A DNA stretch of 64,000 nt, taken from positions 496,001 to 560,000 of the forward strand of contig CANXME010002010.1 in assembly GCA_948144175.1 (NCBI GenBank), in the 5' to 3' direction. The notes beneath the pieces were generated by a model that had not been told where the DNA came from, ran no database searches, and was given only the letters and a program-made list of their open reading frames with translations. Below, one piece after another: positions 1-46,313 of this stretch. This stretch comes from Closterium sp. NIES-65 (Eukaryota > Streptophyta > Zygnematophyceae > Desmidiales > Closteriaceae). Position numbers and translations under genes: made by a program. The stretch's first letter is position 1; the number at the start of each line of letters is the position of its first letter.

Positions 1-246
1 TTGGATGTTGAAGCCGAGGCCAAACTGATCGCACGAGCGACGGTGGAAACCCTCGCGTTTTGGGGAATGTGCCCCGTGGATGGGCCGAAACTCAGGAAGA
101 TCGGCATCGCGGTGCCGCTTGACGCGCAGATGGAGTACGACATCGAACACAGGGGGAGGAAGAGGCCGAGGGGCAAGCAGGGCAAGGAGAGCTCGGGGAA
201 GAAGGGGAAGAAGGGCAGAGCGGGCAAGGACAGCACGGCGGCGTAG
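1..246 (+). CDS. C-terminal end of an unknown basic protein (partial)
   Basis: The frame is already open at the window edge and runs to a TAG at 244-246, so only the last ~81 residues are visible and the true start lies outside. The first half is mixed (ARATVETLAFWGMCPVDGPK). The last ~35 residues are rich in Lys, Arg and Gly and resemble a nuclear-localisation or nucleic-acid-binding tail. I do not recognise the family. Support that this stretch belongs to a repeated unit is a degraded copy at 599-716 that keeps the same order but lacks the basic tail. It could be the end of a transposon protein or of a repeated host gene. Confidence 0.4.
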   Translation: MDVEAEAKLIARATVETLAFWGMCPVDGPKLRKIGIAVPLDAQMEYDIEHRGRKRPRGKQGKESSGKKGKKGRAGKDSTAA

Positions 247-251
247 TCGGC

Positions 252-995
252 ATAACAATCTGCCATGGGCGGCAGGAGGGAGCGCAAGTAGGTCTTCTTG
301 CTAGGATGGCCTGGTATGGGCGGCGTCGATTATGTGTTTTTTTTGGGATTTCTTTTTTCGTTTGATTGTATAGTTTTCGTTGGGATTTCTTTTGTTGGCT
401 GTAACTTTTTGGTAGTGCATGTTACTAGAACACTCCTCGGCAAGGTCGACCTTATCTCTACCATGTTACTCAAATGCGGGCCCAGTTCGATGAACCCCGT
501 CGGCGTATAGCAACTCGGCGTCGACATAGTGCGTCTGGCTGTATGCATGTATATACTCGGCGATGAGCCTCGTCGGCTATGCCGAGATGGTCAATGGTCG
601 GCGCTTTGGGGAATGTGCCGCGCCGCCCAGGTGGCCGAAACTCTAGGAGGTCGGCATCGATGTGCCGTTTGACGCGCATATCGAGCGGGCATGGACAGCA
701 CGGATGCGTAGTCGGCGCACGGAGGGAGCGCTAGGTGGTATGATTGCTCGGTTATAGCGTGATCGGCGCCGTTTGCGCCGTTTGCATGCAGTCAGGGATG
801 TCGACATGAATAAGGCACAATGAATTGCACACACATGGTGGCGACTATGTCGGAGTCCGACATATCTGGTTCGGATGTATGTGTTGGATCATGTATGTTC
901 GTGTTGCATGAGAATCAACAAGTACGATGGGAACACTACGGTTTGCTAAATCAGGGCATCATCAACCTACGCTAACACATATACACCGAGGATCT
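252..995. other. Intergenic stretch, no gene seen
   Basis: Apart from the degraded repeat copy at 599-716, I see no supportable coding region, RNA or terminal repeat. The stretch is rich in GTCGG/CCGAC words, as is the neighbouring Crypton-like gene, and may belong to the same element downstream of its stop codon at 996. Confidence 0.5.
599..716 (+). repeat. Degraded second copy of the 52-251 segment
   Basis: Bases 599-716 repeat 52-251 with scattered changes: both hold TTTGGGGAATGTGCC, GGCCGAAACTC, GGTGCCG or TGTGCCG, TTGACGCGCA and GACAGCACGG. The second copy lacks ~80 bases that encode the Lys/Arg-rich stretch in copy 1; the loss lies between short GAG matches. The second copy has no useful open frame. 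Confidence 0.7.
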
Positions 996-3900
996 TCATG
1001 CCGACTTCTTGCGCTTTGACGGAGGACGCTGCGCAGGTGCGGTCTGCTTGGCCAAGTCGGCCACGGTCTTCGGCATCTGCTCCTCCCAGGTGTCTGGAAA
1101 CAGGCGGTCGACCCACGTCGTCGGCTTCAGCTCGAGCGCCACCAGCGCACAGGCGAGGCGTAGCTTCGAGACCACCTTGGGGCCAAGCCCCTTGACGCCC
1201 ATGCCAGGCTCCTTGGACATCGTCGGTGCCGTCTCCGGGTTGAGCACCGTGAGGGCATCGCAGAAGCTCCCAATGCCCGGTGACGCGATCGTGTTCAGTG
1301 CATCGACCACGGCTTCGGTGTCGGCATCGCCGTCGCTCGCGCGTAGCTGGCGCACCGCATCCATGGCCTTCAGCATGCGGCGCACCCTCATGTTGAGTGC
1401 ACCCTGGGTCGCGCCTTTGAGGAGGGTGTGGCGGTCGATGAACCCCGGCTCGGCGACCCTGTCGCAAAGACGACGGGTGTCATTGGCGGTGGCGGAGTTC
1501 CAGAGGCGCCAAGCGTCCCGCACGGTCTTTGAATCCCGCCAAGGTTGCACCACGTTGAGCTCGTAACTGGCCTCCTCTGCTGTCTGGGGGGGTGGCGGGG
1601 GTTTCCCATCATCTCTCTTGGCTCCGGTCCCCGTGTTGGCCGAATCCGCGGAGCCACCCTCGCCCGGAGTTTGATCGGTAGCCGACGGCGGCGCCGCCGG
1701 CATCCTCCGGGCTTCTGACACACGGAGTGCCTCGGTGAGTCGAGCAAGCTCGGAGGTGAGCGACGCGATGGTGTCGTTTTGCTTCTCGATCGTCTCCTGA
1801 AAGCCTAGCTTCTCGAGCGCCGAGCGCTCGACCTCCTTCTTCAGCGCCTCCTTGAGGGACATGTTGTGATACTGGGTGTCCATGCGCACGGATATTTCCT
1901 GCAATGTTGGGTGTGCGGAAAGGCGACAAGAGGTTAGAATTCACCGGCTAAAATTCAACGACGCCGACGTGGTCGGCAACTCACCTCCGGTTGTATCTGA
2001 GTCGGGTCCCGGCGCTTTTTGATCGTATCGGTGTCGACCGACTCGACCCTTTTCGCCCAGTGCTGGAAGAGGGCAATCCTGCAGAGCTTGGAACCTTGGA
2101 CGTACGGGTGCCACGGTGTGCGGACGAGCTTCACCGCGAGGTCCTCGGCGACGATTCGTCGGAACATCACGAGGGTGCGCAAGAAGTGCACTGCGGCTGC
2201 AGCGGCGTCGCTCCCGTTGACGGCACGCGTCTCCGCCTGCAAGTCGGAAAGTGGCGTGGGTTAGTAGGGAGTTGGGCAGCCAACTAGGCCACGACGACTG
2301 AAAAACATTGTCGGCGTCGAGTGACATACATCGCGCAGCATAGCATCCACGCCGGGGAAGATGTGCTCGGCGAGCAGGTCCAGGAGTTTGTCGGAGGGCT
2401 TGACCCTGCTGCGCCCCAAGAAGTAGTCTTGCTTGAGTCCCGAGTAGCCGGCATCACCACCCCAACGGGAATGGCCGTGATGTACGCACGCGTCATCTTG
2501 TCGAGAGCCCAGTGTCCCAGCTCGGCGATCTGGGCGTGCGGCGTCCCTCCGATGGCTAACTCCTGCGCACCTCCGGCGCGGGCGGCGTGCACGTTCCTTT
2601 TGCAGAACACCTTGTTGGTCGTCCACACCTGCCGAGTCCAACGTTGGTGGGTGGCGGAGGAGAGCTCCTCCTGCTCCTTGTCGTTTCTGGCGAAGAAGAG
2701 ATGCTTCTTGTACCAGCGTTCGCGTTCTGTGGTGTCAGGCGGCGAAAGAAAGTCGGTGCCGGAGAACTGACCGATCTGGTCGAGGATGAAGTGCAGCCAC
2801 AGGCCGGTCTCGCCGACGGCGCACAGCTCCGCTTCCAGGTGTCGCGCAGCGTAGCTCTGCTGAAGACGGGCATCCTTGGAAGTCTTCGAGTTACGCGCGG
2901 CGATCACCATGACGACCGGCTGGCTATCCGGGTTCACCTCCGAGGTGCTCGCCAGGTGGTACAAGAAGATGTCGGGGAGCGTGATCTCGCGGATGCTGGC
3001 GCCGCGCAGGAGAGTGTGGTGGGAGAGTAGCGTGAGCACCTTGATGAGGAGGAATCGCCACAGCGTCTGCGACGGAGTGGTAGCACGCGGGTTCCACGCC
3101 GCCGCCGCCCATGTCGGCAGCACCCTCATCATGATCTGGCGGAACTGCTCGGCGGTGTAGGTATCGCCGATGGTGCCGCGTCGACGGTCGGCGCAGTTCC
3201 TGAACGCAAATCGGCGGGGAAAATCTGTTAGACTGCGTTGACTTCACAGTGCACAGTGACATATAATAAGGTTGTCGACCAACTTACTTGAGGTCCCTCT
3301 CGTTCTTGTGGCGGACGTTGAACCGCACCTCCGATCTCACCACCGAGATCTCCCTCATGATGCCCAGCTCCTTCTCTCGGTACAGCGTTGCCTCCACCCT
3401 CGCCGCCATCTGGCATGCCTTTATGCGCCCGAGGATCGTGTGCACAGTTGTCGACCTCACAGACCCCGTTCGCGTGGCATTGTTCTCCTCCCCGGGCTGG
3501 TCAACAATGAGGTTACACTCACGGCTCATTTGCTTCACGTAGGCGCGCAGCCGGGTTTCGGTGACCCTAGGGCCGTGCAGCCAGATGTACTGTCGGCGGA
3601 CCACTTTCTCGTTGCACCAATCCTTCTTCTTGTTGTCGCAGATGTAGTGGTCGATCTCGTCGACGTGCCTAAGTCGTTGCTCATGGGGTAGCTTGTCGCA
3701 TATCTGCTTCAGCATCTTCGCCGCCCACCTCTTGTAGTGGTAGATGAACGCGGTGTACAGCCTGAGCGTGCTATTCTTCTCCAAGCATTGTAGGTGTCGT
3801 AGGGCGTCCATTATGAGCACGTCAATGCTGGAGTACACCATGTCGTCCACTACAAAGTCCGTCGCCTTCCACCCTTCGCGCGGCACCGCCATGTGCTGAT

Positions 3901-4276
3901 TGTCCTCCTCCTCGTCCACTTCGAGCATGTCACGTATGTATTCGAATTCCCGCCTAAGGCATTCTTCCAAGGTGCGCGGATTCGTGCTACGCGGAGGACG
4001 GTCGTCAACTTCGTCGTCGCTCTCGTCGTCGTCGTCACCACCTTGGTTTTCCGAGCCGGCCGGCACCGACGAAGGTCCAGTCTGCCCATCTACCGTCGGT
4101 GTCGACTTCTTCGTAAACTCCCCAATTGGCGGATTCGGTATGTCCTTGGTGTACTCCCCTTCGGGAATCTGAGTAAGTTTGTCAAGATCGTAAAGCAACT
4201 TCAGCGTCTCTACGGGGGCAGAGGACGGACTGTGGTCGGTTGGGGTACCAACGTCGGGCATGTCGACGTCGTCCAT
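996..4276 (-). pseudogene. Crypton-type tyrosine recombinase (YR) with C-terminal GCR1_C-like domain, four exons
   Basis: Minus-strand exons are 4276-3288, 3199-2330, 2236-1985 and 1898-996, with donors GTAAGT, GTATGT and GTGAGT, acceptors ending CAG, and matching phases; about 1,004 codons. Exon 1 holds an acidic N-terminus and a helical core-binding-like region. Exon 2 holds the recombinase: LLRGASIREITLPDI (first Arg), RHLEAELCAVG (Crypton signature), HAAR (HxxR), ELGHW, and AYITAIP with the likely nucleophile Tyr. DYFLGRSRVKPSDKLL and IFPGVDAML follow, as in the Ndc10/Crypton fold. Exon 4 starts with a coiled coil (KKEVERSALEKL...), then SKTVRDAWRLWN...MRVRRML, like GCR1_C, and ends in KRKKSA. 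Cryptons are DNA transposons that move by YR recombination. A one-base frame break near 2455-2465, just after the Tyr motif, suggests this copy is inactive; a sequencing error is possible. Element ends were not found. Confidence 0.8.
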
Positions 4277-4558
4277 GACCGCTCGTATGCTCTACCGCCG
4301 GCCGTGGAAGAGGGAAAGATTGGTCAACCAGAGATGGTACTGATTCACGGGTGCGGTGTACGCCGTAATCGTCCTGCGGCGGCCTTCCTCGAATTCCCTC
4401 CCAAGTGCTTCTAACTCAGCGTCGACCTCGAGTCGTGCTTCTAACTCAGCGTCGACCTCGAGTCATTCTAGTTGCGCTTTGATGTCGTCGTCTACCGAAT
4501 CGGCGGGGGGTGGGATAAGTTGTTGTGGCTGTTGGGCACTAGCCCTTCCTCTGGCCAT
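4277..4558 (-). other. In-frame upstream extension of the Crypton-like gene (likely lost N-terminus)
   Basis: Upstream of the ATG at 4276 the same frame extends back to an ATG at 4558 and would encode MARGRASAQQPQQ..., then a Glu/Leu-rich coiled coil doubled by a tandem repeat. Two in-frame stops interrupt it: TGA at 4463-4465 and TAG at 4292-4294. I infer that the ancestral protein started at 4558 and that this copy has decayed, with 4276 the first usable start now. A 5' UTR read by chance is the alternative. Confidence 0.45.
4405..4464. repeat. Perfect 30-bp tandem duplication
   Basis: Two identical 30-bp units (4405-4434 and 4435-4464, beginning GTGCTTCTAACTCAGCG). The length is a multiple of three, so on the minus strand it duplicates ten residues of the coiled coil (LEVDAELEAR type) without shifting frame. 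Confidence 0.85.
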
Positions 4559-5584
4559 GCGTCGCCGACTCGGTAAGGTTGGGAGATGCTATCGTCGCCC
4601 TGATCTATCGTCGCCGACTTTCCTATATGACGACCTAGAACCTAGTAAGGCGAAGTCGACGATGGTCGACCCCAACACCGACCTATGGCACTCTATTCCA
4701 GGTCGTCGCCTTTGTCCCGCCGCTCGGTCGACTCGGCCGTCGAGTAACCTACACCCGCAGAGATAGCGAGGGTCCTGTGAAGAAAACGAAGTGCTAGATG
4801 GCGCACAGGAGCATGAGAGAAACATGAAGCTGAACCGGCAGAATGAGAGCGATGTGCGTGGTCAAGGAGGGGTATGGTTGCGAGCCACTGCGCACCTGCC
4901 GCGCTCCACGCAGCCCTCTTTGCAAGCGCCGCTGTGCACGTGCATGACGTGTCACGATCGATGCATGTCTAGTGTCACGCCGCTCTGCGCTCAACGGCAC
5001 TCCCGCCGGTGCCTTGCCACGGTGGAATTCACGTGCGCCACGTGCAATAGGCCAATCACCTAGTTCCACTCTCCCGAAATGCCGTAGCGTCCAGCTCTCC
5101 CGCGCAAACCTCATCGACCTGCGAGTAGGCGCGTGGCCGGAGGCTTGGTCGACGCCGACATTTCCATGAGTCTGGGGCTCTCTTCGCCTATGCATTGTTT
5201 GGTCGCGCAGCGAAATATACCCGGTGGTGCGAAGCGGGGCCACGTCGGCGCCGTCGTGGCACCTCCCGATTGTCAGGCTCGATCTCGGCCGTCCCTACTA
5301 AGCCACGTGGCAGTAATCGCGGCTCGGCGCACAACGTGTCGAGCTGTGGTTCAGGGTCCGCTGAGGTATCCTTCTCGGGTTTCTCTCAGCGAAACCCGAG
5401 GTCGTCAGATAGTCGACAATCTCGAGGGGTTCAGAGCCCCAGAGGACTGCCTGGTCGCCCCAGTTTGCCACTCGCAAGTCGTCAGGAGCTCGTCAATCCC
5501 GAGGGGGTTCGTTGTCCTATCGCAACCGCGAAATTGGGCGGCAGTTTTCGTCGGCTGAGGTATACCATCCCATTGCTCAGAGGC
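4559..5584. other. Stretch without a supportable gene
   Basis: Open frames here (for example 5133-5590 plus) have skewed composition and no recognisable motif. A small inverted repeat, CGGGTTT...CGAAACCCG, sits near 5377-5400. This interval probably holds the 5' flank of the Crypton-like gene and intron sequence of the GH16 gene whose last exon starts at 5727. Confidence 0.45.
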
Positions 5585-5689: not shown

Positions 5690-5726
5690 TACGGTAGGGG
5701 CGTTGCTGACGCATTTCTATTTACAG

Positions 5727-5919
5727 ATGGTTCATTGATGGCGAACTCGTGCGCACGGTGATGAAATCCACGAGCAGCAGCTTTCCCTCTATGAACGTCT
5801 ATTTATACTCCAGCTTATGGAACGCTTCTTTCATCAACGGTGGCTCGTGGGCTGGAGTTAACAGTGATCCTACAAATGCCGCTTACACGATTGCTGCCAA
5901 GAACATCAACATTCAGTAA
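5727..5919 (+). CDS. Last exon of a GH16 (XTH/EG16-like) glucanase/transglucosylase
   Basis: A consensus acceptor (TTTCTATTTACAG) precedes 5727. The exon encodes WFIDGELVRTVMK..., then NVYLYSSLWNA, and ends at TAA 5917-5919 after 63 codons. 'FIDG..VR' followed by 'Y.SLWNA' is the signature of plant GH16 wall enzymes just after the catalytic strand; the catalytic motif itself would lie in upstream exons, which I cannot find nearby. No C-terminal XET_C extension follows, which fits EG16-type or other short GH16 proteins better than typical XTHs. Expected role: cutting or rejoining xyloglucan or mixed-linkage glucan in the wall. The gene is either truncated, or the Crypton-like unit upstream sits in a long intron. 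It converges on the UAM gene 400 bp away. Confidence 0.65.
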
Positions 5920-10080: not shown

Positions 10081-10105
10081 GCCTGGGGGAGGGGGGGCGA
10101 GTGCC

Positions 10106-10241
10106 TGTCAGATGATTATATATTGCTGATGCATATATGTAGGCTGTAGTGGGGTAGCCCATATGGGGTACAACCCAATTAGGGTTGGTACTTGTACTTG
10201 TTTCATTTCATAGTGCATCATTCCTCGCCTCTATCTCAACA
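10106..10241 (+). repeat. 5' LTR of Copia-B
   Basis: 136 bp, TGTCAGATGATT to ATCTCAACA. Confidence 0.95.
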
Positions 10242-10255
10242 TGGTATCGAGCAGG
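10242..10255 (+). promoter_or_regulatory. Primer-binding site of Copia-B
   Basis: TGGTATCGAGCAGG, tRNA-Met-like, directly after the 5' LTR; the same sequence is used by Copia-D. Confidence 0.8.
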
Positions 10256-10259
10256 TTCC

Positions 10260-11150
10260 CTAGTGGGAACTGTTCCTAGGGCCCACCCACTATTCAGTCC
10301 TGCCCGGAGCGCGCTCTGCCCTAGCCCGAGTCGCGCTGGGCCTTTTTTTTTCCTTTGGCGGCCCGATCGCGTCGAGCCGCCCGCGATTTTTGGCGCGCCA
10401 CCTACGCGGCCTCGTCGCGCCGCCCCTAGACGGCCGCGCCGCGTCGCTTGTGCCGCCCTCCAGTCGCGCGCCGCCCCCTCTGACCCTCGCGACGCCGGCG
10501 CCGTCTCTGACGGCCCCGCGATCGCCTGCGACGGCCCCGCCGTCCCCTCTGCCGGCCCCGCCGCTGCACTTGACGGCCCCGCCGTCCCCTCTGCCGGCCC
10601 CGCTGCTGCACCCGACGGCCCCGCTGTCCCCTCTGCCGGCCCCGCCGCTGCTTCAGACGGCCCCGCCGCTGCACCTGACGGCCCCGCCGTCCCCTCTGAC
10701 GGCCCCGCCGCTGCACCTGACGGCCCCGCCGTCCCCTCTGACGGCCCCGCCACTGCACCTACCGGCCCCGCCGCTACCCCTGACGGCCCCGCTGCTGCAC
10801 CTGTAGGCCCCGCCGTCTCACCTGCCGGCCCCGCTGCTTTACCTGACGGCCCCGCCGCTTCACCTACCGGCCCCGCCACTACCCCTGACGGCCCCGCCAC
10901 TGCATCTCCCGGCCCCGCAGCTGCATCTCCCGGCCCCGCCGCCCCAGCAACTGCGCCGCCCCAGCAGCCGAGCCGCCCCAGCGGCCGAGCCGCCCCAGCA
11001 GCCGAGCCGCCCCAGCAGCCGAGTCGCCCCAGCAGCCGAGCCGCCCGAGCCGCCCGAGCCGCCGAGCCGCCCGAGCCGCCCAGTAGCCGAGCCGCCCGAG
11101 CCGCCCGAGCCGCCCAAGCCGCCCGAGCCGCCTGCACTGCCCTGTCTGGT
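10260..11150 (+). repeat. GC-rich repetitive leader of Copia-B
   Basis: About 0.9 kb between PBS and gag, made of GGCCCCGCCG-based units (10500-10960) followed by GAGCCGCCC-based units (10960-11140). No start codon for gag lies in it. It stays open in several frames on both strands purely from composition. Confidence 0.85.
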
Positions 11151-11196
11151 GAGCACTGAGCTTTGCTCTGCGCATTGCCCTCACCCTACTGCTGTC

Positions 11197-12430
11197 ATGG
11201 CTACTCCCAGTGTCCTCACCTTTGACGCTGAGGGCAGAGCCATCGACTTTGACGTGTGGGTAGACGACCTACTGCTTTTCCTACAGAGCGACAGAGCTGA
11301 CGGCCTCTCTCTCTTTGATCTCACCTCTGGTGCCTCTCCCGCCCCTGCTGCTACTGAGGATGCCACTGTTCGCTCACAGTGGGCCACACGTGATGCTGCT
11401 GCACGTCTTGCTGTGCGTCGCCACCTCCCTCCCTCTGAGCGTGCACACTTTGGGTCGTACAAGAGTGCTCAGACCTTGTACGACGCCGTTATTGCACGCT
11501 ACTCCTCCCCTGCCACAGCTACACCGAGCCGCCTCATGCTACCGTACCTCTTTCCCGACCTTGCTTCTTTTGCCACAGTCACCGACCTCATTACCCACCT
11601 GCGCACTAGTGACGCTCGCTTCCGCGCTGTGCTTCCTGCTGAGTTCTGCGCCAAGAACCCCCCCCCCCATGTACTTCACTCTCTACTACATTGTCACCCG
11701 CCTCCCTGACTCCCTTCGCGGAGTCAGGGACGACTTACTCTCAGTCTGCCCCACCACTCTCACTGTTGAGCTCCTCGAGAAGTCCCTCCTAGCAGCCGAG
11801 AAGAGCATTCTCGCTGTAGGGGCCTCTCGTGGTGACCCGCGCACCCCCATCTTTGAGGGGTGTTCCCCCTCCCCCCTCCTGCCCTCTGTCGCCTCTACTG
11901 CTACGGCCGACCTAGTTGGTTTTGAGTCGGTCGGTGCGGAGTCTGCCCCCGGTGGGAGACGTCGCTCTGGCAAGGGCAAGGGGGGCAGGAGCGGTGGTGG
12001 AGGCGGCGGGGGCGGTGGAGGCGGCGGTGGAGGCAGCGGAGGAGGTGGGGGTGGTAGCGGGAGTGGTGGCGGGAGTGGAGGTGTCACCGGCGGCAGTGGA
12101 GGCGGGGGCGGCAGCGGCGGTGGTGGTGGGAGTGGAGGCGGAGGCGGCGGTGGCGGCGGCGACGGTGGGAGTGGCGGTGGAAGCGGAGGTGGTGGCGGCG
12201 GCGGCGGAGGAGGCGGCGGCGGAGGTCGTGGCTCGTCGCAGAGGAGTGGCTCCGGTGGTGGTCAGCGCCGGCAGGAGCGGCAGCAGCGTGGTCAGGAGAC
12301 CCTCTCCCCCAGCAGCTCCGTCAGAGGGGTGGGGGTACTGGTCCGTGCACCTACGTCTTGCGCACTGGCGACCGTGCGGGTGAGCCGTGTGGTGGTCCAC
12401 ACTCCACCCAGCGCTGCTTCGGCCGCCTGA
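11197..12430 (+). pseudogene. gag region of Copia-B
   Basis: Starts MATPSVLTFDAEGRAIDF, the N-terminus shared by Copia-C, D and E. A helical Gag core (DDLLLFLQ, YSSPATATPSRLMLPYLFPDL) is followed by the conserved AVGASRGDPRTP and FEGCSPSPLLPSVAS blocks. A Gly-rich stretch (~11996-12238) comes next, then Cx13Cx3Hx4C (12346-12417) in place of the usual CCHC knuckle. Packages element RNA in the virus-like particle. Fossil. Confidence 0.85.
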
Positions 12431-21015: not shown

Positions 21016-24000
21016 CTAGTTAAGGCTCATACCGCACAACTTAGCACAGCGCCAGTGGGGTTCTTCAGCAAGCCGCTTCGTGAGAAAATCTGCGGGCTGT
21101 TGCTGTGTTTTCACATAGAGGGGCTGGATTGATCCCCTCTGCACCTCCTTCCGCAGCCAATGCCATTTGATCTGCATGTGCTTGGTAAGCCCATGCAGCA
21201 CCGCGTTCTTGGACATTGCAATAGCACTGGAGTTGTCACAAAACAGCGGTGTAGCCGTTTTCTGCTCGTGTCCGATCTCCTCCAGCAGCTTCCTCAGCTA
21301 AATCAGCTCCTTGGCTGCATGATACATTGACATGTACTCGGCTTCAGCAGAAGAACCCGCCGTTTCCACCTTTTTCTTTTACCTCCAGCTTACGGGCCCA
21401 CCACCAAGCACGCACACATATCCTCCCACTGACGACATGTCCTCCTTTTCCGATGCCCAAGTTGCATCAGCAAACCCCGTGAGAAACAGCTCCCTGTCCC
21501 CAAGAAGCTCCCCCTTCTCGTTGAGAACCTCTGCTCCTTTCTGCTTCTTTTGAGCCACGGCCGAGTATTGAACTCCAACAGTGGGATAGGAGTTTAAATA
21601 CTTGATGATGCGCTCAGCTGCATCCAACTGCTCCTCGGTGGGATTTTGTACCACCCTAGCTTGCTGCCCTACAGCAAACGAGACATCCGGCCTTGTGTTT
21701 ACGGCTGCATAAAGCAAACTCCCCACCATTGACTGAAAACGAGCCTGCTCCCTCTGATCCACCCCTTCATTCTCACCAGCCTTGACGAGTTTGAACTCGG
21801 ATGGAAGTGGTGTGACAATTTTCCTTCCGACCTCAATCTCATACTTGCTCCCCATGTCGTTGATATACTTCTCCTGGTGCAGCTTCACCCATCCATTGCT
21901 GACATCCCTCTCAATATGCATCCCAAGGTAGTAATTCGCCTCCCCCAGGGTCTTGCACTTGAAGTTTTGCATCAGCTTCTGCTGCACCTTCATCACCTCT
22001 TGCTTGCTGCTCCCGAACAAGAGGATGTCGTCCACGTACACCAGAAACATGACGAGGCTCTCCTTCTCCCCCATGAGGAAAAGACCCTCGTCACATGCGC
22101 TCGCCATGAAGCCTATCTCCTCTAGAACTGAAGACCGCTTCTTGTACCAGCAACGTGGTGCTTGTTTGAGGCCATAGATGTCCTTCTTCAGTTTGCACAC
22201 ACGCCCAGTACCGTCCTCATAGCCCGGCGGCTGCGACATGAACACCTCCACATCTATCAGCCCATAGAGGAAGGCTGTGGTGATATCCATCTGGATTATC
22301 ACCCACCCACACACAGCTGCACCGGCGAGGAGAACGCACAATGTTGGTGACATAGCAGTTGCAGCAAAGGTTTCCTTGAAGTCCTCTCTCTCCTTTTGCT
22401 GGTATCCCCTTGCAACCAGCCTACTCTTGTAAAGTGACACGGCTCCTTTGTTGTCAGTTTTAATCCTTGGAATCCAGCCACAGCTTATGGCTTTCTTCCC
22501 CTCCGGCAGTGGCACCAGCTCCCATGTCCAATTTTCCATTTGGCTGTTGTATTCAGCATCCATTGACGCCAACCACTTGTCCCTATCCGGTCCTTTGAGC
22601 GCTTCTTCCATGTTCAGCGGTTGAGTTGGTGCGGGTGCCATGAAGCAATAGACATCCTCCTCCTCTTCCTCATCAGAGTCACAGCTACTTTGAAGCACCA
22701 GCAATGCGTCATGTTGCTGCTGCTCTCCCCTTGCTCCTCCGTCATTCCTCAGCTTCAATGCGGCTGCTCGCATTTGGCTTGCAATCATGGGTGAAAGAGC
22801 ACGACCTGTGGGAGGGGATTTGATTTGGGTCCTTCTTGGGGGAAGAGTGGGGGGAATCACACGTGTTATAGGGTGAGGTTTTTCAGGTGCAACCATTGGT
22901 TCCACATCCTTGACCACAGGAAGCTCTACTGCACCCTCCTCTTCGAGTGCCGTTGCACCTTCCTCCTCTACCCACTCCTCCGCATCAAACCCCATTGTTG
23001 CTTGCTCCAGCTGCTGCATGATTTTCTCCTTTGGCTGCTTGGACCAGCTCCCATAGGTGATGTCCTCCATGAATTTGACATCCCTGCTGTCAAACACCAC
23101 TCCTTTGCTCGGCTCCCATAGCAGCCACCCCTTGCTTTCCGCTGCCAACCCCAAGTGCACACACCAAACAGCCGTTGCACCCAACTTACTACGGTGTGCT
23201 TTGGGGATGTGAGCCATTGCCATGCAACCAAACACACGCAGCATGTCAATGGGCGGCTTCCTCCCAAGCCACCTCTCCATGGGGACCCATGACTCACCAC
23301 CAACGTTGGTGAACACCCGGTTCTTCACCACCGTGGCGTGGCGCACAGCATGTGGCCACTTGGAGTTACCCAACCCTGACTCAATGAGGAGTGCACGTGC
23401 TGTCTCCAAGACCGTGCGGTTGGCCCTTTCAGCTACGCCGTTGGACTGCGGTGTGTATGAGGTGGTGAGCTCGCGGATGATGCCCTGCTTCTTCAGCCAT
23501 GCAGTCAGCTCCTCCCCAAGGAACTCCCCACCCCGGTCAGTCCTAATCCGCATCACCTTGTGCCCGGACTGCTTCTCCACCAACGGCAGCCAATCGTCAC
23601 GTATGATGGACGGCACGTGGTCCTTCTTCTTGATTGGATAAGTCCAAGTCACTCGGCTCCAATCATCAACAATTGTGAGAAAATACTTCTCACCCCGTTC
23701 CCCTATCAACGGTAGCGGCCCCACCACATCCATGTGCACGAGCTCTAAGAGCTTCTTGCCGCCACCCTCGGTTGCATGAAAGGGGAAGCGTGTAAACTTG
23801 CTTAGCATGCAAGTTTCACACTTGTGAGAGACCGCTGCACCAATCAGCTTCAGCCCCTTGACCCCTTCCCCCTTTTGCAGTTGCTGCAGTGCGGGCATAG
23901 CTATGTGCCCGAGGCGACGGTGGGCTGTCATCCAGTCCGTTTCACCGCTCCTCGCTGAAACCTTCAGCTCCTCTGCAGCTACAGCATTGCACTCCCCCTC

Positions 24001-25503
24001 AGATCCACCCTCCTTGCCCCATAACACCACCGGCAGCTGCCACATTGACTTGCAAATGTCGCGGTTCTCGTGAAGGTCCCACAACACTCGCTTTCCCAGC
24101 TGTCCCGTGAATGTCTTGGCACCATCGGTGGAAGTGCTGACCCCACATTTGCCCAGCTTCCTGAGGGAGATCAGATTCGCCTTGAGGTCAGGGACGAGTA
24201 GCACATCGCTCAACACCACCGGCTTGCCGTCGGCACCCTTGAATGCAGCACGTCCCGCCCCCGTCACCTTGAGAGCGTGCCCGGATGCCGACTTCACCTC
24301 AGCAATTGGTGCGGTCCCGACCTTGTCAAGGAGATCGGCCCTTGGAGTCATGGTCCATGCCGCTCCCGTGTCCAATATCCACGTGTTGAGCGGGGGCAGT
24401 GAAGCTCCAGCATGGGCGATCACCGCCTCCTCTTCCGGCTCCCCAACGTGGAAGAATTGACCGGCTTCCCGTTGCTCATTTTCAGCCGGTTCTTCATCGG
24501 CTACCGCTTCGGCGCCGCTCCCATCCTTGGTCCTGTTGGAGGGGGTCCACCAAGAAGGTTTAGAACGACACTTAAACCAAGGGTGACCCACCTTCTCACA
24601 ATACCAGCACTTGCCCTCCATTTTCCCACCTCCCTTTCCTCCCCCTTTGCCACCACGGCCTCCACCACGTCCCGTTCCCTTGCCACCTTGCTGACTTGAG
24701 GGCTCCTCATCCTTAGCAGCCCCCCTCCCCGCCCCTTGCCATTTCTTGCCTTTACCCCCTTTGCCTCCTTGCATGGCGTAGCTGCTGCTCCCCTCTTCAC
24801 TTCCGCTTAATTGGCGCCTCCGGAAGTCCTCCTCAAGTATCTTGGTGCGGATCCACTCCAACGTCCAGAGGCTCTGGTTTTGGGGAAGGCTTAAGCCGCT
24901 CGTGAAGATCATCCAAGATTCCGGCAGCAGTGACAACATCTTTACACACTTGGTTTGCTCGGGGTAGACGATTCCAACGATGGCAAGCTTGGCGTAGAGT
25001 TCTCTCAACTTGTCTAGGATGGGCTGAACGGGTTCTCCTTCACTGAGGCGTAGGGTGGAAAGCTCTCTCTCCAACATGAGAGTAGCTACAACTGATGTGG
25101 GGGCATGGAGATCCTTGAGCACGGTCCATGCCTTAGGACCACACTCTTCCTCCGGTAGAAGGTGCATGATATGCTGGCGTTGAGCGAGATCTAGGCATTG
25201 AGACAAGATGTAGTACCCGGCGGATGAACGTTCGTCCCACTCGTTCTGAAGCTCCGGGGCACTAGGTCGTTTCTCGCTGCCTATCATAAGCTTTAAAAGA
25301 CCTATTTGCCGAAAATACAGCTGCATCTTCCAAGACCAATCGTCATAGCCCTCTCCACTAAACTTGTCGACGGAGAAGTTCTTCAACACCTCTCTTAGCA
25401 GCGGGCCCTGGCTCGTCCGGGCTATCCTAGGCGCGGAGACACCAGATTCTTGGCTACCACTACTCGCGGGGGCTGAGTTCCCTTCTTCTCCAGGCGACCC
25501 CAT
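21016..25503 (-). pseudogene. gag-pol region of Copia-M
   Basis: In order from 25503: UBN2-type Gag (NFSVDKFSGEGYDDWSWKMQ), CCHC knuckle CWYCEKVGHPWFKC near 24600, protease ILDTGAAWTM near 24380, GAG-pre-integrase HRRLGHIAMPAL near 23905, integrase core (HMDVVGPLP, RTDRGGEFLG, TPQSNGVAERANR) 23730-23400, RT (KSRLVARGYQQ, then LVYVDDILLFG near 22040), and RNase H ending with KHMQIKWHWLRKEV and ADFLTKRL near 21016. One long frame covers most of it. All enzymatic domains are recognisable; fossil status as in the parent entry. Confidence 0.93.
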
Positions 25504-25534
25504 CGATGGATACGTTGAGAATGGCTAAGGACCA

Positions 25535-36228: not shown

Positions 36229-37017
36229 CGTTGAACGCCGTTTAATCGTGGGTCGCTTGCAGCTGTCCCCGAAAACGACTTCTCTGGTAGGAGAAACCGC
36301 TCTCAAAACTGCCGGCCAGCTCGCAACAACTCCAAGCACGCAGCGTCGCACGAGTCGTATTCCGAGGTTACCGGCCCCGGTTTCCCTCGTCGCCTGCGCC
36401 CCACTTCTGCTAAGTGCGATATGGCCACTCCGCTTTTCGTTGCAGCCCGTAAGTGTCGGCGGGTCCGAAAATCCCGTCTGTCCACGTGCACTCCTGCCGA
36501 AATCTTCGATGACACGCCCGCCATGCAGTAAAAGCCGCTGCACTTCAGGTCGGGCGGGGCGACAGTTGACCCCGCATAATTCGGGCAATTCGCGTGTCGT
36601 CTCTCCTCGTCCACCGATATTTTCGGACGCAAAACTCCATTTGCGCCTGGTGAGTTCCCCAGCCGACTTTTTCTTCACAGCAGATCCGAAATTGTCGCCC
36701 ACAGTGACGCACGTTCCTTGTCGACAACTGCCGAGCCACACTCCGTGAGTCACGCGCGCAAAATGACGACGAGCCACCGTCGTAACTTGCCGCTTCAGAC
36801 GAACTCCGAAGTTGTCGCGCAGCTGTTGACCCAGGTCCGACGGCGTCAACTGCCACACACGTTGACGACTTCCGCAAATTTCGTGCAGGTGCCGACGCAG
36901 GTCCGCTGACGCTAGCTGCCTCACAAAATTCCGAAATCGTCGTTAAAACCGCAGCGGAATAGTAACTCACTTTTAATGTCGCGACAGCTACAGCTGTCCG
37001 TTGCCCGGGGGGATGGA
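36229..37017. other. Non-coding host DNA with recurring TCCGAAATTGTCG word
   Basis: No gene recognised. Variants of the word lie near 36466, 36499, 36622, 36686, 36808, 36876 and 36930. The open minus frame through here shows only the repeat-derived DNFG motif. Confidence 0.5.
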
Positions 37018-46063: not shown

Positions 46064-46167
46064 CTCTGCAAAAAACAACTCGCCCAAACATTGCCCTAGG
46101 TTTGGCAAAAGACTGCTGAAAGTAGTCGCGGGGCAACAATGTTTGAGGTTTATCATGATGATTCATC
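46064..46167 (-). repeat. Dispersed repeat, copy 2 (inverted copy at 5585-5689)
   Basis: Reverse complement of 5585-5689 over ~100 bp with small differences; both copies lie a short distance upstream of a plus-strand exon-like segment. Confidence 0.75.
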
Positions 46168-46222
46168 AGCATGCGAGGAATGTAGGGAGACTGCTCGTAA
46201 GGATTCCCACAGTTTGCTTCAG

Positions 46223-46313
46223 AGGTTCGGCAACCAAACCAGGAGGTATGTTTCCAGTGACTTGGTTCATTCCCGACACATACACATCGCTCACACGTGT
46301 GATGCCTTTCAAG
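46223..46313 (+). CDS. Possible orphan exon, GH3 beta-xylosidase-like
   Basis: An acceptor (TTTGCTTCAG) and a donor (AAG|GTCAGT) frame 91 bases encoding GSATKPGGMFPVTWFIPDTY and ten more residues. 'PGG.FPVTWF...Y' resembles the block N-P-G-G-x-L-P-V-T-W-Y-P near the end of the second domain of plant GH3 beta-xylosidases. No neighbouring exons were found, so it is a gene fragment, an exon of a gene broken by repeats, or a chance match. Confidence 0.35.

Follow-up and report, generated by a model that had tools for sequence, protein, structure and literature searches.

Evidence for a large two-gene Crypton-like DNA transposon in the genome of a probable streptophyte alga

Introduction

The locus examined here raises the question of whether a four-exon gene resembling a Crypton recombinase belongs to a mobile element in a green-lineage genome, and how such an element would move. 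The window analysed is a single stretch of 64,000 nucleotides, and the sequence-only reading from which this work started had placed the gene at positions 996-4276. Kojima and Jurka (2011) described Cryptons from fungi, animals, oomycetes and a diatom (stramenopiles) (PMC3212892). Most described hosts carry them in very low copy number, and the elements are hard to delimit. Their known footprint consists of 4-6 bp direct repeats, some encode an additional C48 peptidase, and Ndc10 is regarded as Crypton-derived (PMC3212892). In the green lineage, the same source lists a green-algal mitochondrial gene as possibly Crypton-derived and includes Chlamydomonas in its tree (PMC3212892). The literature searched, a scope outside which most subscription papers and Repbase fall, contained no description of a streptophyte Crypton.

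The recombinase gene and its active site

The gene occupies the minus strand from window position 4276 to 996. Its four exons, defined by open frames and splice sites, are present as the sequence-only reading had drawn them, and their standard GT...AG borders were confirmed. Exon 1 (3288-4276) encodes an acidic N-terminal part followed by a helical region, which may correspond to the DNA-binding core domain expected at this place; Pfam gives no significant match for this exon. Exon 2 (2330-3199) carries the catalytic domain, recognized by its NDC10_II match, its alignment with Cre, and its invariant residues. Exon 3 (1985-2236) leads into exon 4 (996-1898), which encodes a coiled coil and then a conserved tail domain (PWR..V..AW.LWN...RRL.DR...RR).

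An HMM search for Ndc10_II had been proposed as a check, and it returned a significant match. In a search of 24,736 models, exon 2 matched Pfam NDC10_II with E 5.9e-14 (52.3 bits, cut-off 26.3), and the match is therefore above chance. The next match, Phage_integrase (E 0.058), covers the H-R-W-Y part of the exon. All eight members of a small recombinase family alignment match NDC10_II. Other collections were less informative: PHROGs gave a weak integrase match (E 0.006), NCBIfam gave sub-threshold matches only, and a PDB sequence search found nothing for exon 2 or for its profile.

Within the eight-member alignment, which includes a member (on C430, locus L032) of 43% identity, H204, R207, H229, W230, and Y239 are invariant, and R65 is identical in the seven members that cover it. 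The minus-strand codons lie at 3006-3004 (R65), 2589-2587 (H204), 2580-2578 (R207), 2511-2509 (W230), and 2484-2482 (Y239). A profile comparison (hhalign) with Cre, taken from the phage P1 record, aligned 43 columns without gaps at E 5.4e-4 and a probability of only 30%, placing Cre H289, R292, W315, and Y324 in register with H204, R207, W230, and Y239. Local alignment sets Cre R173 opposite R65; over the full length it scores 59, a value that none of 500 shuffles reached (shuffle mean 33.3, maximum 58). These five Cre residues are the ones we take to be catalytic, and the conserved R/H/R/Y, whose place in the active site had been named as a further check, align with them. Lambda integrase gave no useful alignment with the recombinase as a comparator. 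AlphaFold reached a mean pLDDT of 34 on the shallow recombinase alignment, which is too poor to use, so the fold assignment rests on sequence.

Purifying selection on the recombinase is evident from codon comparisons, with an exon 2 dN/dS of 0.17-0.18 between subfamilies and a median of 0.38 across 382 pairs with dS above 0.02 (33 distinct sequences). The NDC10_II match, the alignment with the Cre active site, and the evidence for mobility given below support an Ndc10/Crypton-type tyrosine recombinase, and the original identification is borne out.

The proposed GCR1_C-like tail was not supported. Neither exon 4 nor four tail members matched GCR1_C, and the candidate was rejected. The tail domain is conserved and contains a W-x-x-W, and its weak likeness to GCR1_C amounts to 14 columns shared with another host gene. 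A six-frame genome scan for GCR1_C, in which four candidates were scored, produced a single match, in another gene. This match, the only one above the cut-off in the genome (L001, C1988:105092-108187, protein E 4.2e-6), belongs to a glutamine- and methionine-rich gene with no recombinase match within the 3.1 kb examined; it is perhaps a domesticated DNA-binding gene.

All motifs quoted in the sequence-only reading exist, but a frameshift splits the series. In the window copy, LLRG...YITAIP and DYFLGR...IFPGVDAML are in different frames. The frame changes within 2430-2452 (minus strand), just after 2452 and after codon 249 of exon 2, so the spliced frame has no read-through and cannot give a whole protein. 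Sixty recombinase loci, corresponding to 43 distinct places, were examined, and 42 of these places read through to DYFLG without a change of frame. The sole exception is the window copy, whose frameshift is therefore private among the loci examined. The window element is a decayed copy that has retained its catalytic residues, with the frameshift located downstream of them.

Extent, ends and target of the element

The recombinase gene is real, but positions 996-4276 cover only part of the mobile unit. The whole element spans C1712:490078-501570 (11,493 bp), from window position 5570 to 5,922 bases beyond the left window edge. Its part inside the window (1-5570, minus strand) was delimited by the limits of similarity to a copy on C637, by the shared left-end motif, and by empty sites. 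Similarity to the C637 copy is 96-98% and ends at both element borders, and the exact left base was fixed by the motif common to the copies. At least 149 matches to the exon 2 protein, at 78-100% identity, occur in the 874-Mb genome, a lower bound drawn from 575 first candidates. The NDC10_II family has at least 125 matches listed in the genome, partly from other subfamilies. A further subfamily is represented by C1769:2628904-2650531 and other NDC10_II matches with 374-aa frames; its matches lie 10.42 kb apart on one strand and perhaps form another tandem family.

The left end, at 5540-5570 on the minus strand, reads GGATGGTATACCTCAGCCGACG. The left ends of 20 copies were inspected (the window and C637 copies, then ten, then eight). 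Apart from minor variation, 19 share the start GGATGGTATACCTCAGCCG; the exception is the copy on C1880. Nine right ends, those of the window and C637 copies and of seven of the ten, read as ...CCGCTGRGGTGTTCG, again with minor variation. The right-end search motif was unmatched in the other three (C2261 at 1.34 Mb, C985, and C1703), and a laxer scan located a variant right end in C985. As in Cryptons, long terminal inverted or direct repeats are lacking, and the two ends share only an inverted half-site of 6-7 bases.

Three of the 19 usual left flanks repeat another flank, leaving 16 that are independent. Fifteen of these end in G, and 13 have T or C as the penultimate base. Uninterrupted empty sites were found for all four insertions tested with joined flanks. 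The window insertion has two empty-site relatives of about 80% identity, one of them at 46074-46275 (plus strand), outside the element. Five empty sites at 89-91% identity match the C2313 insertion (four were read), the best for C637 reaches 99% (three were read), and C1880 has one, at 99%, on C2155. The join exceeds the empty site by one base at C637, C1880, and the window, and by one or two at C2313; hence, there is no fixed target duplication. Bases common to both ends number one to four and are imperfect (CGG at C637). The search for further copies and the comparison of flanks, also proposed at the outset, defined ends, empty sites, and target in this way.

Tandem junctions and an internal end-like site

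Among the 149 listed recombinase matches, 11 same-strand neighbor pairs lie 9.7-12.8 kb apart, some of which are probably one array present on several contigs. Three tandem junctions were read (C2133, C1780, and C2261), and in each the 3' end of one copy abuts the 5' end of the next exactly. The C2133 and C1780 junctions, from one subfamily, read GCTGGGATCTTCAGCATAATATAGCTCAGC. Arrays of this same-subfamily type could alternatively have grown by unequal crossing over. The C2261 junction, near 36,660, reads ...GGCTGGGGTGTTCG up to the join and GGATGATATACCTCAGCCG after it. It connects copies of two subfamilies, 94% and 88% identical to the window element, and because of this difference the two did not arise by simply duplicating a single copy.

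Tyrosine recombinases use inverted half-sites arranged around a spacer (PMC3212892). In all three junctions, GCTGGG and CTCAGC stand 18 bases apart as inverted half-sites. The right-hand half-site, GCTGGG, is in each case one base off a perfect palindrome, and the window's own right end would give the perfect half-site GCTGAG.

An end-like site of the form GCTGAG-N19-CTCAGC also occurs inside the element at 5360-5390, where it corresponds to the left end of the C1880 copy. It is the only match to GCTGAG-N14-24-CTCAGC in the window, with 0.20 expected; the pattern is short, and 19 of 100 shuffled windows contain at least one match. The same N19 layout appears near the left ends of the C2133 and C1780 copies, and in the C2261 pair the second member retains the CTCAGC half only. 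The C1880 copy starts at the internal site, with ten bases before CTCAGC versus 11 at a normal end, and this start is a true insertion boundary, one case in 20. Its left junction (L079) contains two bases, CT, that come from neither the empty site nor, exactly, the element; perhaps they are spacer carried from an earlier site.

The second gene

The element contains a second gene (gene 2) on the opposite strand, convergent with the recombinase gene. Its main frame lies outside the window (C1712:491943-495446) and is open for 1,167 codons in the window copy and 1,163 in the C637 copy. Splice sites indicate further exons after it, and the 3' end enters the window at 1-246 (plus strand), encoding a basic tail with the stop codon at 244-246. 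The last part of the gene contains one stop in the window copy and one in the C637 copy, at different places.

Acidic runs are abundant in gene 2 and yield weak, chance-like matches. The parts searched have no significant Pfam, NCBIfam, or PDB relative. An AP2-like domain, suspected by eye, was rejected (hhalign probability 0.1, no Pfam match). Structure prediction for the C-terminal stretch gave a mean pLDDT of 49, too poor to use.

A 103-aa C-terminal stretch of gene 2 has at least 150 matches (the first 150 of 362 candidates were scored). For 117 of the 149 listed recombinase matches, this stretch lies within 6 kb on the opposite strand, at a median distance of 3.3 kb, and 117 of the 150 listed gene 2 matches are linked to a recombinase likewise. 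The 32 unlinked recombinase matches may have lost gene 2, or their partner may lie beyond the matches listed. Between subfamilies, the stretch shows dN of 0.15-0.25 and dS of 0.48-0.69; the main frame of the window and C637 copies gives a dN/dS of 0.70, so constraint is clear for the C-terminal stretch only. Fourteen copies (e.g., C1749:2529486 and C1006:813271) are mosaic, with 96-97% identity to the window copy in the recombinase against 64-65% in the gene 2 stretch. This pattern suggests that subfamilies have swapped their recombinase and gene 2 halves.

Genomic setting and host

The element is inserted between two plus-strand GH16 exons of a host gene, one of which lies just outside it at 5710-5919. 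Cellulose synthase genes (PF03552) are represented in the genome by 82 exon matches, with a best E of 1.2e-158. Weaker bacterial members of this family match in three of 14 control genomes, so strength and coverage of the matches matter. XET_C has no match in the genome and none in the 14 controls, and its absence therefore says little. Together, the PF03552 genes and the GH16 gene at the insertion lend indirect backing to the green-lineage host proposed initially. Judged by these genes, the host is probably a streptophyte alga.

Other repeats share the window. Positions 10105-12200 belong to a repeat of very high abundance (24,723 first candidates), with 84-98% identity to those copies that were scored. 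Positions 21382-25524 (minus strand) hold an open frame of 1,381 aa for a Copia-type polyprotein, with matches to gag, integrase, and reverse transcriptase.

Proposed mechanism and alternative explanations

We consider it likely that the window element is a degenerate member of a family of large Crypton-like DNA transposons with two genes that move by a Cre-like circle route. In this mechanism, the recombinase would excise the element and close it end to end into a circle, with a pair of inverted half-sites (GCTGRG-N18-CTCAGC) flanking a spacer where the ends meet. The circle would then join a short, weakly specified target (about T-T-Y-G) by Cre-type strand exchange, and integration would leave no target duplication beyond one or two bases. 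New circles would also enter beside resident copies and generate head-to-tail arrays, which could be explained because the resident right end, TTCG, fits the target preference. Gene 2 may act as a helper, for example in DNA binding. A circular route has been proposed for Cryptons by analogy (PMC3212892), and the tandem junctions and empty sites fit such site-directed integration, with the circle itself as its presumed intermediate.

A more far-reaching and more tentative reading, which we hold to be somewhat short of probable, is that these copies constitute a separate streptophyte lineage of Crypton-like elements. Such a lineage would have its own partner protein in gene 2, more than a hundred copies, circles aimed at resident ends, a usable internal duplicate of the end site, and exchange of recombinase and gene 2 between subfamilies.

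Unlikely, but the best of the alternatives, is an ordinary CryptonF or CryptonS, perhaps acquired from a fungus or an oomycete, in which gene 2 is cargo without a role. The recombinase family is the same, and CryptonS elements also lack GCR1_C, have a conserved C-terminal region, and in some cases encode an extra protein (PMC3212892). However, the C-terminal GCR1_C domain of CryptonF is not found in the recombinase, and the gene 2 parts searched give no match to C48 peptidase. CryptonS elements have 5-6 bp repeats and mostly TATGG termini (PMC3212892), whereas the element has GGATGGTATACC at its left end, GTTCG at its right end, and one to four shared bases. The linkage of gene 2 to 117 of the 149 listed recombinase matches, together with the constraint on its C-terminal stretch between subfamilies, also argues against mere cargo. 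The element is provisionally grouped with Cryptons by its NDC10_II kinship and its behavior, and assigned to neither CryptonF nor CryptonS.

A Starship-like, virus-like, or retro-type (DIRS, Ngaro) recombinase element is very improbable. Its large size, the recombinase towards one end, and the second gene would suit such an origin, and tyrosine recombinases are reported from polinton-like viruses (PMC12220804) and from algal DIRS-type retroelements (PMC4157794). Yet DUF3435 (PF11917) is absent from the Pfam matches up to E 10, a range in which HMMER filters drop most very weak matches. Neither reverse transcriptase nor DDE enzyme has a Pfam match in the four recombinase exons and the gene 2 parts searched, capsid has none in the searched parts of both genes, and two scans of viral contigs (protein and profile) returned no relatives. 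Moreover, 11.5 kb falls below the 15-kb minimum of Starships (PMC12134995). Least credible of all is that the copies were carried along passively by segmental duplications and unequal crossing over, with a dead or domesticated recombinase: some flanks are shared (3 of 19) and same-subfamily arrays exist, but 16 independent left flanks, clean empty sites, the C2261 junction between two subfamilies, retained catalytic residues, and dN/dS well below 1 speak against it.

Comparison with known systems

For the Crypton-like transposon that we favor, near-identical copies, exact ends, empty sites, and tandem junctions define a concrete recombination site that is testable in vitro. The lox site has 13-bp arms and an 8-bp spacer. 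The element resembles Cre/lox of phage P1 in its inverted half-sites around a spacer and in the correspondence of R173, H289, R292, W315, and Y324 to R65, H204, R207, W230, and Y239. In contrast, its half-sites are recognizable over 6-7 bp only and stand 18 bases apart, and elsewhere the recombinase has little similarity to Cre. Starships, which carry a DUF3435 captain, likewise place the recombinase gene towards one end and contain other genes, but the element has no PF11917 match and measures 11.5 kb against 15-700 kb (PMC12134995).

With Cryptons, the element shares the NDC10_II recombinase kinship, the lack of long inverted repeats, and a few bases common to both ends, and it would share the circle-type integration proposed for them (PMC3212892). 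It differs in being 11.5 kb long, in carrying a convergent second gene that looks unrelated, in the lack of a GCR1_C match, and in its streptophyte-like host. Where described Cryptons have 4-6 bp repeats, it has one to four imperfect shared bases and empty sites one or two bases shorter than the join, and its recombinase matches number at least 149 compared with the very low copy numbers of most hosts (PMC3212892). In the land-plant lineage, the DNA-binding domain ALOG also derives from a recombinase, one whose reported origin is different and lies in a retroelement (PMC3537659). The element would bring Crypton-like DNA elements into that lineage, with a tyrosine recombinase that carries R-H-R-Y in intact copies.
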